A stretch of 64,000 nucleotides of DNA. Origin: a virus. The notes under the pieces were generated by a model. That model was not told the DNA's origin. It was given only the letters and a program-made list of their open reading frames with translations, and ran no database searches. Positions 5,148 through 27,414 of this stretch are shown here, in pieces. The DNA is taken from the IMG/VR virus record IMGVR_UViG_3300034073_004109, positions 18,419-82,418 of that record, one strand, 5' to 3'. The translations under genes and the position numbers were made by a program. Within the stretch, counting starts at the first letter, position 1; each line of letters begins with the position of its first letter.

Positions 5148-6398
5148 TTAGCGCAGCGTGATCTCCAGGCTCTCCAGTCCTCCGGGCCAGACAAGTTCGC
5201 TGACGAATTGCAGGATCACCGCCCGCAGTTCCTCGTCCGTCGCCAGTTCAAGCGTCCGCCGGTCTGCAAACAGCTCGACCAGAAGCTCATAGCGAGCTGA
5301 GCTATCCACTTGCTGCAGCGCCTGCAGCTGACGATGCAGCGCCGCCAACTTGTCCTCTAATCCATCGACTCCAGCAGCCTGCGCTGCCTGCAGCGCTGAG
5401 ATCTGATTGCGAATTGGTCCGGCTTCCGCTGGCTCCTTCTTTTCGCTGATAGCTGCGCTGGCGAGCTCCGCTGCCTTGGTGGTCAACGCATCAATCACCT
5501 TCCTGCGCACCACCTCGACGCGGATGCCCTGCCCGTAGCGAGCGCAAATGCGGTTGTGGCATTTCAGGCGAGGGACCGCCCGATCGCGGATGTTGTGCAG
5601 GGACTTGCCGCAGCTCTCGCAGCGCACCAGTCCGGTGAACAGATGCACGGTGTGAGCAGCTCTACCCCGCATGTTTGATCGGGCCTTGAGCTTGTTTTCA
5701 GCTTCCGCCCATTCCTGCCAGCTGATCAACGGTTTGGTCCCGCCGTGCTCGCCGCGCACGATGCCGCGCAACATCGGATTGGCAATCCAGCTTTTGACGC
5801 CCTTCGGGGTCCACTTCGATTGCGTCTTGGCGATCCAGCCAGAGACATTGAAGTCGAGCTCCATCAGCTCATCCCACATCTGGCGCGCGGCATCCCAGTG
5901 ATCCGGGCATGGCACGACGTACTGCCCGTCGTAGCTGTATCCAAAGGGAACCTTGCCGCAGGCGTAGTACCCCTGGGCCTTGCGTCGCCTCAGACCGTCT
6001 CTGACCTTGGCTGCCGTGAGCCGGCTCTGCATCTGCGAGAACACGCTCATCATCCCGGCCTGCACGAAGCCGCCGATCGACTCGGTTTCAATGGTGCCGC
6101 CGACCAGGGCCACCACCTTGGTGCCGCGTGCGGCACAGAGCTCGAGGAATGCCATGTCATCCCCCGAGCGGCTCAGGCGAGACTGATCCGCGACGACGAC
6201 CTCGTCGACGCCGCCGCGACCAACCAGGGCCCAAAGCTCATCCCAGCCCGGACGCGCGTTGCCCTTGAAAGCTGACCTCCGCTCGGAAATGACCCGCTCA
6301 CAGCCGGCACGCTTGAGCTCGACGACCTGGCCCTCGATCGACTTGTCCTGCTCCTCTTGGGCCGTCGAGGTGCGGGCGTATCCGATTCTCAAAACCAT
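5148..6398 (-). CDS. Serine site-specific recombinase (large serine integrase type)
   Basis: 416 residues from the ATG at 6398; the frame upstream is not protein-like. The resolvase domain occupies residues 1-145, with YARTSTAQ placing the nucleophile at Ser11 and DQSRLSRSGD supplying active-site arginines. The recombinase domain covers about 145-240, followed by a zinc ribbon (Cys260, Cys263, Cys280, Cys285) and a coiled-coil C-terminus. This is the architecture of large serine integrases, at the short end of their size range. It would integrate or invert DNA and suggests a temperate lifestyle. The attachment site is probably near one end of the gene but was not identified. Confidence 0.85.
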   Translation of the reverse strand: MVLRIGYARTSTAQEEQDKSIEGQVVELKRAGCERVISERRSAFKGNARPGWDELWALVGRGGVDEVVVADQSRLSRSGDDMAFLELCAARGTKVVALVGGTIETESIGGFVQAGMMSVFSQMQSRLTAAKVRDGLRRRKAQGYYACGKVPFGYSYDGQYVVPCPDHWDAARQMWDELMELDFNVSGWIAKTQSKWTPKGVKSWIANPMLRGIVRGEHGGTKPLISWQEWAEAENKLKARSNMRGRAAHTVHLFTGLVRCESCGKSLHNIRDRAVPRLKCHNRICARYGQGIRVEVVRRKVIDALTTKAAELASAAISEKKEPAEAGPIRNQISALQAAQAAGVDGLEDKLAALHRQLQALQQVDSSARYELLVELFADRRTLELATDEELRAVILQFVSELVWPGGLESLEITLR

Positions 6399-25906: not shown

Positions 25907-25910
25907 AATT
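25895..25910 (+). promoter_or_regulatory. GTAGGGTGAAAAAATT element, copy 1
   Basis: This 16-base sequence is repeated with one change at 47642-47657 (GTAGGGCGAAAAAATT), and its core TAGGGTGAAA recurs before the terminase gene. Here it lies between the divergent capsid and LAGLIDADG genes. It may be an operator or a phage-specific promoter element. Confidence 0.45.
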
Positions 25911-26623
25911 TGGACGCGGCGGATGTCCGAGGCCTCCTGGGCCTACTCCTCCCTGACGGCAGCCTTGTCCCATATCGCAGTCCTGCAGGGGGTTACATCC
26001 AACTGACGTTGACTGCCGGGGTTTCTGAGTCCGCGTTTCTCGAGGACAAGGTCGCCGAATTTCGGCAATTCATCTCGACTTCGGCAGAAATTATTCCCTA
26101 CAAGACGCGCCCGCGCGCCAACGGCAAGACGACCGAGGTGCTGCGCTTTCGGGTCTCGACCAACAAGCTGCGCCCTGTTTACAACCTGCTCTACCCGGGC
26201 GGCGAACGGCAGATCACTCAGAACGCTCTGGATCTCCTTGGCGCCAAGGCTGCCGCGTGGTGCTGGGCCGAAGGAGCTCGGCTGAACCGTGATGGATCTT
26301 CGTGCCTAGCCCGCGTCGGTAACTCCGTCGATGAAGGACACATGGTGTCGTCGTGGATTGAAGTCCTCACCGGCGCACGCTCCGAGATCGAGGGAGAACT
26401 GATCAAGCCAAGGCTTCGTTTTGATGCCGAACAGACCCGCAAGATCCGGGAGTCCTTGGCTCCCTATGCACCGCCCAGTCGTCAACACCTTTTCACCGGA
26501 GAGCAGTGGGATGTCCACTCAATTCGTAGCGCGCGTACTGAGCTACAGCATCGGCAAGGGGAAAATTGCTCTCAAGGGGAGCCGCAAGAGGCCCTGGCTG
26601 GAACTCAAGCGACCCGAGACTGA
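25910..26623 (+). CDS. LAGLIDADG-type homing endonuclease-like protein
   Basis: 237 residues with a TTG start. Motif 1 is LLGLLLPDGSL (acid Asp16); motif 2 is AAAWCWAEGARL (acid Glu121); YNLLYPGGERQIT precedes motif 2 as usual in LAGLIDADG proteins. The last 33 codons read through the start of the next gene and are probably not selected. It lies immediately beside the capsid gene, a usual homing location, but no intron or intein was seen. It could be an active nuclease or a domesticated DNA-binding protein. Confidence 0.65.
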   Translation: MDAADVRGLLGLLLPDGSLVPYRSPAGGYIQLTLTAGVSESAFLEDKVAEFRQFISTSAEIIPYKTRPRANGKTTEVLRFRVSTNKLRPVYNLLYPGGERQITQNALDLLGAKAAAWCWAEGARLNRDGSSCLARVGNSVDEGHMVSSWIEVLTGARSEIEGELIKPRLRFDAEQTRKIRESLAPYAPPSRQHLFTGEQWDVHSIRSARTELQHRQGENCSQGEPQEALAGTQATRD

Positions 26624-27089
26624 GCGCGCGTATCTCGGTTCCCAGGTCTACCAGCTACGCAAACTCCATCCCGGGGAGCTCGAGATCTTCTGGGACCGAG
26701 TGCCAACCGAGGGTTTCTACGACCTCGATCGAGCCAGGATTCAAAGCGATGAACTCTGGCGCGCCTACGAGCTCCTCTACCCCCGCGACAAATTCACGCT
26801 GTCACCGACCGTGCTCGAGCTCACGGGGCTCCAGGGCGCTTGCGCGCTCTGGCTTGATCACGGCTCCTGGTATGGCCGAGCAGGGGAGATCACAGGGGGC
26901 TACAGCCCCCACGAGAAGAAGCTCATCGGTGAGTGGTTGACCTCTTTAGGCTTCGAGGCTGCGAACAAGCGCGTTGACAGCCGATGCCGCCTTTGCATCT
27001 CCCCTGATTCGATGCGCAAATTCATCCCGGCGATCCGCCCGCTCGTACACGCATCGATGCGTAGCAAGCTTCAACGTAAAAGGACCTAG
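26511..27089 (+). CDS. Second LAGLIDADG-like protein, motif 1 acid replaced
   Basis: 192 residues from the ATG giving MSTQFVARVLSYSIGKGK. Organisation parallels the upstream gene: motif 1 position reads VLSYSIGKGKI with Lys16 where the first protein has Asp16, then LYPRDKFTLSPTVLELTG and motif 2 ALWLDHGSWYG with Asp116. The two overlap by 113 bases and are probably diverged duplicates. The missing acid suggests this one is not an independent nuclease; it might pair with the first or bind DNA only. Confidence 0.6.
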   Translation: MSTQFVARVLSYSIGKGKIALKGSRKRPWLELKRPETERAYLGSQVYQLRKLHPGELEIFWDRVPTEGFYDLDRARIQSDELWRAYELLYPRDKFTLSPTVLELTGLQGACALWLDHGSWYGRAGEITGGYSPHEKKLIGEWLTSLGFEAANKRVDSRCRLCISPDSMRKFIPAIRPLVHASMRSKLQRKRT

Positions 27090-27249
27090 GCTGAATTCTG
27101 CCCCGAAGCAGAACTACGTCAGGGGCCTCCAGGAGCTCGAGTTTTTGTAGTTTCCTCGAGCTGGTGAGTGATCCGCCGTGCTCTTGATCACAGTGCGGCG
27201 GCGCCTGGAAATGATCTTCTTAGGATATTCAAGATCCTGCGGATCACCG

Positions 27250-27414
27250 ATGGCGATTCCAGAGAACCCTCCCAATACACCCGAGCAGAACAAGCCAAGC
27301 GAGCCGCGTCGCTTGGGCTCTGATTACTGCCTCGCTTCGGGACTTCGGCGCAAATTCCTTGACTTCTGCGACGAGAATCCGGGCGCAGAAGAGTGCCGCG
27401 TCTACGACCTCTAA
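27250..27414 (+). CDS. CP12-like small protein (C-terminal cysteine loop)
   Basis: 54 residues from the ATG at 27250. The N-terminal half is Pro/Glu/Asn-rich and disordered-looking. The C-terminus, FCDENPGAEECRVYDL, is nearly identical to the end of CP12 (YCDxNPxAxECRxYDD), with the Cys40-Cys49 pair spaced exactly as in CP12. In cyanobacteria this loop binds GAPDH and nucleates the GAPDH-CP12-PRK complex that stops the Calvin cycle in the dark. The PRK-binding N-terminal cysteine pair of full CP12 is missing. Cyanophages are known to carry cp12, so an auxiliary metabolic role is plausible. Confidence 0.7.
   Translation: MAIPENPPNTPEQNKPSEPRRLGSDYCLASGLRRKFLDFCDENPGAEECRVYDL

Follow-up and report, generated by a model that had tools for sequence, protein, structure and literature searches.

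The window, a stretch of 64,000 nucleotides from an IMG/VR virus record, carries a short gene beside the major capsid gene, divergent from it and 3' of two LAGLIDADG-like open reading frames (ORFs). Translation of positions 27250-27414 on the plus strand gives MAIPENPPNTPEQNKPSEPRRLGSDYCLASGLRRKFLDFCDENPGAEECRVYDL followed by a stop, with the coordinates and frame of the original prediction, and the product is referred to as mini-CP12 hereafter. It is a free ORF of 54 amino acids in which no enzyme fusion and no further domain were found. The ATG or GTG start giving this length is common to relatives of equal length, and in-frame starts also exist upstream. The minus-strand translation of the same interval is an open frame without any CP12 feature. 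The gene and the parts of its product are:

27250..27414, plus strand: mini-CP12 coding sequence, 54 amino acids plus stop (PF02672 match above the cut-off; orthologues at the same locus)
27250..27336, plus strand: residues 1-29, variable low-complexity N-terminal segment (pN, alignment, low pLDDT)
27337..27366, plus strand: residues 30-39, SGLRRKFLDF, predicted conserved helix before the loop (family alignment; AlphaFold2)
27367..27396, plus strand: residues 40-49, CDENPGAEEC, loop of the CP12 disulfide type, C-x3-P-x4-C (spacing in 43 of 44 relatives)
27397..27411, plus strand: residues 50-54, RVYDL, exact CP12 C-terminus with the acidic penultimate residue D53 (D or E in 44 of 44)

The original prediction had read the end of this protein as the C-terminal loop of CP12, with exact cysteine spacing but no N-terminal Cys pair, and a search with the CP12 profile (PF02672, Pfam), proposed at the time as a check, bore out all three points. 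Residues 35-53 aligned to profile positions 52-70 of 70, that is the last 19, with a score of 27.3 bits against a curated cut-off of 22.7 (E = 6.5e-6); positions 1-51 were unmatched, and the N-terminal Cys pair is absent from the protein by both sequence and profile. The C-x3-P-x4-C spacing is followed by xxY[DE]x and the end of the chain, a feature of the CP12 family, and mini-CP12 terminates exactly where CP12 does. It was the sole CP12 match in the whole 82,418-base (82.4-kb) record (E = 2.0e-6), and among 14 control genomes the cut-off was passed only by Synechococcus elongatus. The closest solved relatives were cyanobacterial CP12 chains crystallised with GAPDH, for example 3zdf_C, 6gfo_E, and 3b1j_C.

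IMG/VR was scanned for relatives with the window protein, alignments, and the capsid protein as queries, and after removal of duplicates 44 non-redundant mini-CP12s were recovered from loci of the S-EIV1-like phage type. C-x3-P-x4-C-x5-end was kept in 43 of these, and the penultimate residue was D or E in all 44, preceded by Tyr in 33. L069 has lost the second Cys, while L007 and L008 have lost the Tyr and retained the acid; going by their sequences, these natural variants show that the loop can decay. The AWD_VEE core, which makes the PRK contact, was found in 0 of 44 family members. The window protein has an extra cysteine, C27, kept only in part of the relatives. Residues 1-29 are not conserved across the family, and in their place 16 of 44 members carry an N-terminal CxDGxC, each time together with an FFxPI-like motif; a CTGACxRHC cluster occupies the N-terminus of four other members. 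Marine mini-CP12s with the CxDGxC and FFxPI-like motifs were L047, L048, L058, L060, L062, L063, L162, L167-L170, and L175, and this marine N-terminus is possibly a second functional module.

A tree of 66 related loci, with the gene in 40 and missing from 26, required five gains or losses, three of which were forced by well-supported branches. Where mini-CP12 is missing, the two flanks lie about 200-290 bases apart. Its neighbours are the major capsid gene and a fiber/head-protein-like gene (PF23140/phrog_240), and in L009, L052, L066, L068, L129, and L133 the stop codon of mini-CP12 and the start of the gene that follows overlap (TGATG/TAATG). Conservation of the CP12 end in the same slot in dozens of related viruses suggests a stripped-down tool altering host carbon metabolism. 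Matches to Klebsiella, Gordonia, and Stenotrophomonas in tblastn searches (E of 4-10) were at chance level and were set aside.

Purifying selection on the C-terminal 25 codons is strong for the most part, and the N-termini are mostly free. In most pairs pN was 0.02-0.17 and pS 0.48-0.91 over these 25 codons, with the most divergent pairs reaching a pN of 0.25, and dN/dS was 0.01-0.13 in computable pairs save L009/L052 (0.41). Low pN with high pS, in a frame conserved in tens of contigs, argues that the mini-CP12 match is not a chance one. The first 29 codons were nearly unconstrained when the window was compared with L005 or L006 (pN 0.49-0.62) and were better conserved in close marine pairs, with L062/L063 showing a pN of 0.09 against 0.12 at the C-terminal end. 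The conserved unit in the window's clade is thus helix, loop, and tail. AlphaFold2 placed a helix at residues 31-42 and gave a block pLDDT of 80-83 for residues 31-50, a low pLDDT for the majority of residues 1-20, a mean of 66.1, and a pTM of 0.40; the modelled helix is consistent with the CP12 fold and is not proof of it. By analogy with E79 of CP12 and E362 of GapB (PMC4436894), the D53 tail would be expected to enter the NADP site of GAPDH.

By its closest major capsid and terminase matches, the source phage is an S-EIV1-like cyanophage. The major capsid protein was 70% identical to that of S-EIV1, its sole match among 50,697 phage records, and the terminase was 51% identical to that of the same Synechococcus phage, the next best match being at about 25%. 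The host of S-EIV1 is Synechococcus from an arctic lake, and with psbA in relatives this agrees with the cyanobacterial host proposed originally; at the level of gene content, either mini-CP12 or psbA in the relatives points to such hosts. Each of eight long relatives, S-EIV1 included, has one CP12 copy. In S-EIV1 (KJ410740.1) this is an ORF in the complement of about 5931-6071, directly before PurM, where no CDS is annotated; it has 45 amino acids from its only ATG and 58 from stop to stop, ends in MRFYNWLICKLFKRCEIEIIKSPTAAFKSYCEENPSSRSCRIYDV, and scores above the CP12 cut-off. The CP12-tail ORF before PurM is also located at L002:2923-3060. No talC was found in the eight long relatives or in the window's phage, and the record holding the window has no psbA, so the pentose-phosphate package of T4-like cyanophages is not evident here.

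Among contigs of at least 46 kb, psbA occurred in 1 of 12 with mini-CP12 and in 9 of 9 without it (uncorrected Fisher p = 3e-5), a count from which contig G011, carrying psbA and a sub-cut-off CP12 match, was left out. Mutual exclusion of the two genes was nevertheless rejected, as both occur in the shorter contigs L070, L071, and L207, and the traits are clade-structured and follow phylogeny, with one supported independent pair only. The psbA genes were located at L064:458-1579 and in contigs G006-G016.

Comparison with known CP12s placed the likeness at the very end of the chain. Against canonical CP12, including that of Acaryochloris, and against picocyanobacterial and T4-like CP12 (with hhalign in the latter case), profile-profile alignment of the mini family covered the last 21 columns only (probability about 97%, E about 1e-11). 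Canonical CP12 (PF02672; Thermosynechococcus, S. elongatus; PDB 6gfo, 3zdf, 3b1j) shares with mini-CP12 the last about 21 residues, comprising the C-x3-P-x4-C loop, the CRxYD end, and the termination point, but has about 75-90 rather than 54 amino acids, an N-terminal Cys pair, and the AWD_VEE core. The T4-like cyanophage CP12s (phrog_627) and the two-Cys CP12s of picocyanobacteria resemble mini-CP12 in having the C-terminal loop and neither the N-terminal Cys pair nor AWD_VEE, and those of T4-like isolates are also phage-borne. They are, however, full-length, with an N-terminal domain common to host genes (IDEHI..D..RH..EL..L..YK..HP..DP) that mini-CP12 does not have. The T4-like proteins of S-SZBM1, S-CREM1, S-MS29, and SynMITS9220M01 (the last as a hypothetical protein) aligned over their whole length with marine Synechococcus two-Cys CP12, whereas the window protein matched phrog_627 only at positions 60-74 of 75 (E = 0.014). 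Since the annotated T4-like cyanophage CP12s retain the complete picocyanobacterial two-Cys protein, the loop-only form is a distinct variant.

Other CP12 tails set limits on what is new here. Phage CP12-like proteins resembling the carboxy-terminal region only and without the N-terminal Cys pair have been described previously (PMC3906501), so the missing Cys pair by itself is not new. S-CAM7 encodes a 51-aa hypothetical protein, AOV62221.1 (H15/L142), which is likewise very short and ends in CEENPWDLECKIFDL, but it belongs to another phage family (Kyanoviridae), has an unrelated N-terminus, and has no PHROG match; loop-only phage CP12s are therefore not unique to the S-EIV1-like lineage. The S-EIV1 ORF is also C-terminal-only and ends as mini-CP12 does, but it lies before PurM rather than on the capsid side and has no SGLRRKF. 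The plant GapB extension and Chlamydomonas ADK3 carry the CP12 loop without the PRK-binding half (PMC4436894, PMC9406205); these tails are fused to an enzyme, whereas mini-CP12 is a free peptide and is predicted to act in trans. What is distinctive in mini-CP12, on these alignments, is that the entire N-terminal half is gone. Judged by profile match, locus, and selection, mini-CP12 is a real, conserved loop-only variant of phage CP12, found unannotated in its lineage.

Phage CP12 is a textbook case of a virus diverting the carbon flow of photosynthesis. The reading I favour, at a probability of roughly 60%, is that mini-CP12 is a genuine gene of S-EIV1-like cyanophages in which CP12 has been reduced to its GAPDH-binding module, and that it acts as a plug on host GAPDH, does not recruit PRK, and thereby spares NADPH. 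The module would consist of the short helix, the C-terminal Cys loop, and the tail, carried on a variable leader. Disulfide formation, GAPDH binding, inhibition, and a metabolic benefit are what I infer for it: in the oxidised form, with a Cys40-Cys49 disulfide, the tail would occupy the NADP pocket of the host's Calvin-cycle GAPDH (Gap2), plugging would lower NADPH use, and NADPH would be kept for nucleotide synthesis. There would be no bridging to PRK because AWD_VEE and the N-terminal half are absent.

Set against established work, the protein has, in sequence terms, all that is needed for GAPDH and nothing of what is known for PRK. As summarised in PMC9514657, replacing Cys4 by Ser abolishes GAPDH binding and replacing Cys1 by Ser abolishes PRK binding (Wedel and Soll, 1998). 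The original prediction had taken the missing Cys pair to mean that PRK is not bound; the pair is indeed absent, but its absence alone does not abolish binding, since in Synechococcus PCC 7942 a two-Cys CP12 nevertheless assembles the complex with PRK and GAPDH (Tamoi, 2005, as given in PMC9514657). For this reason the absence of AWD_VEE, a segment (AWD_VEEL) that contacts PRK in CP12 (PMC11257934), is the stronger argument for lost PRK binding. The acidic end of the CP12 and GapB tails enters the NADP site (PMC4436894), inhibition of GapDH2 reportedly seems to matter more than binding of PRK when cells acclimate to glucose in dark phases (review PMC11257934), and phage CP12 expression is high during infection in the light (PMC5082946). 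Several observations speak against plugging, among them the absence of talC and psbA from the phage and the decayed loops of L069 and L007/L008. In Synechocystis, CP12 mutated in the AWD_VEEL core resembled the knock-out and failed to slow NADPH decay (PMC9514657), so a coreless loop may be insufficient, and in algae GAPDH is inhibited only about two-fold by the binding of CP12 alone (PMC4436894).

This partial inhibition by CP12 alone equally favours the main rival, in which mini-CP12 acts as a decoy that frees PRK, and so does the loss of the PRK-binding half alone, with strong selection on the GAPDH end. The phage CP12 literature, however, points to inhibition of the Calvin cycle (PMC5082946), and a simpler gain would be protection of NADPH by inhibiting GapDH2 (PMC11257934), which leaves freeing of PRK an unlikely explanation. 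The tail could instead be a docking tag for GAPDH, with the N-terminal segment, such as the marine CxDGxC and FFxPI-like one, as an effector bringing another partner; this would fit the invariable pairing of these motifs in the 16 members, the L062/L063 N-terminus that is as conserved as the C-terminus, and the use of CP12 tails as appendages in GapB and ADK3 (PMC9406205). In the window's own clade, however, the N-terminus is short and unconserved (pN 0.49-0.62) and would hardly be a specific effector, and docking is accordingly improbable.

A role in the virion would be in keeping with the structural-gene neighbours and the stop/start overlaps with the following gene, yet the sole conserved part is the CP12 loop and the S-EIV1 copy lies elsewhere, making such a role very improbable. 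That the ORF is spurious, or a decaying remnant merely resembling CP12, is hardly credible: it is short, mostly unannotated, missing from 26 of 66 related loci, and damaged in its motifs in L069 and L007/L008, but the CP12 match exceeds the curated cut-off, the frame is conserved, dN/dS is mostly at or below 0.13, and the gene sits at the same locus in divergent contigs.

As a natural protein keeping the GAPDH half alone, mini-CP12 would separate action on GAPDH from action on PRK. If it inhibits, GAPDH alone would be the phage target; if it is a decoy, phages could also keep the Calvin cycle running. At 54 amino acids the peptide lends itself to synthesis and assay, the variants with a lost Tyr or a lost Cys are ready controls, and the S-EIV1 isolate with its own copy offers an infection system. 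A bolder version, which I regard as possible but doubtful, is that a large uncultured S-EIV1-like lineage has pared CP12 down to a free GAPDH plug of about 20 conserved residues, uncoupling GAPDH from PRK control, and that a new redox-type CxDGxC and FFxPI-like module, recruiting a different partner, has taken the place of the lost half in one clade. The result would be a minimal metabolic switch open to re-purposing, of a kind not known in hosts.

Several further elements were observed around the gene. Between the capsid gene and mini-CP12 lie two overlapping paralogous ORFs (25910-26623 and 26421-27089, plus strand), the first with a weak LAGLIDADG_2 match (24.1 bits against a cut-off of 25), and relatives share this overlap. 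In relatives, group I introns (Rfam RF00028) were found inside the major capsid gene at L005:3837-4239 (minus strand) and L009:3206-3505 (minus strand); the window's capsid gene is uninterrupted, and the L009 one contains a further interruption of 1.2 kb that had no Rfam match.

A strongly conserved structured RNA of about 113-126 nt (27100-27212, plus strand) ends 38 bases before the mini-CP12 start codon and folds into three hairpins around a junction with a covarying loop-loop (kissing-loop) pseudoknot, AACUAC/GUAGUU. Of the pair cells in 45 distinct copies, 95.8% were standard, against 80.9% in shuffles and at most 44% when slid; both sides had changed in 26 of 36 pairs, and the pseudoknot was 100% paired with three covarying pairs. 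Rfam gave no match to it at threshold, the first hairpin being weakly like CyVA-1 (18.6 bits), and it is probably an undescribed phage RNA family. There were 49 full-length relatives and a truncated one, and 78 viral contigs matched the core pattern. The RNA always accompanied the pair of LAGLIDADG-like ORFs next to the capsid gene, whether mini-CP12 was present or not, and a CP12-specific riboswitch was rejected because loci lacking mini-CP12 carry the RNA equally. In the truncated copy (L005:5943-6016) the 3' half is deleted and the 5' half is joined directly to an intact mini-CP12 start (GTG).
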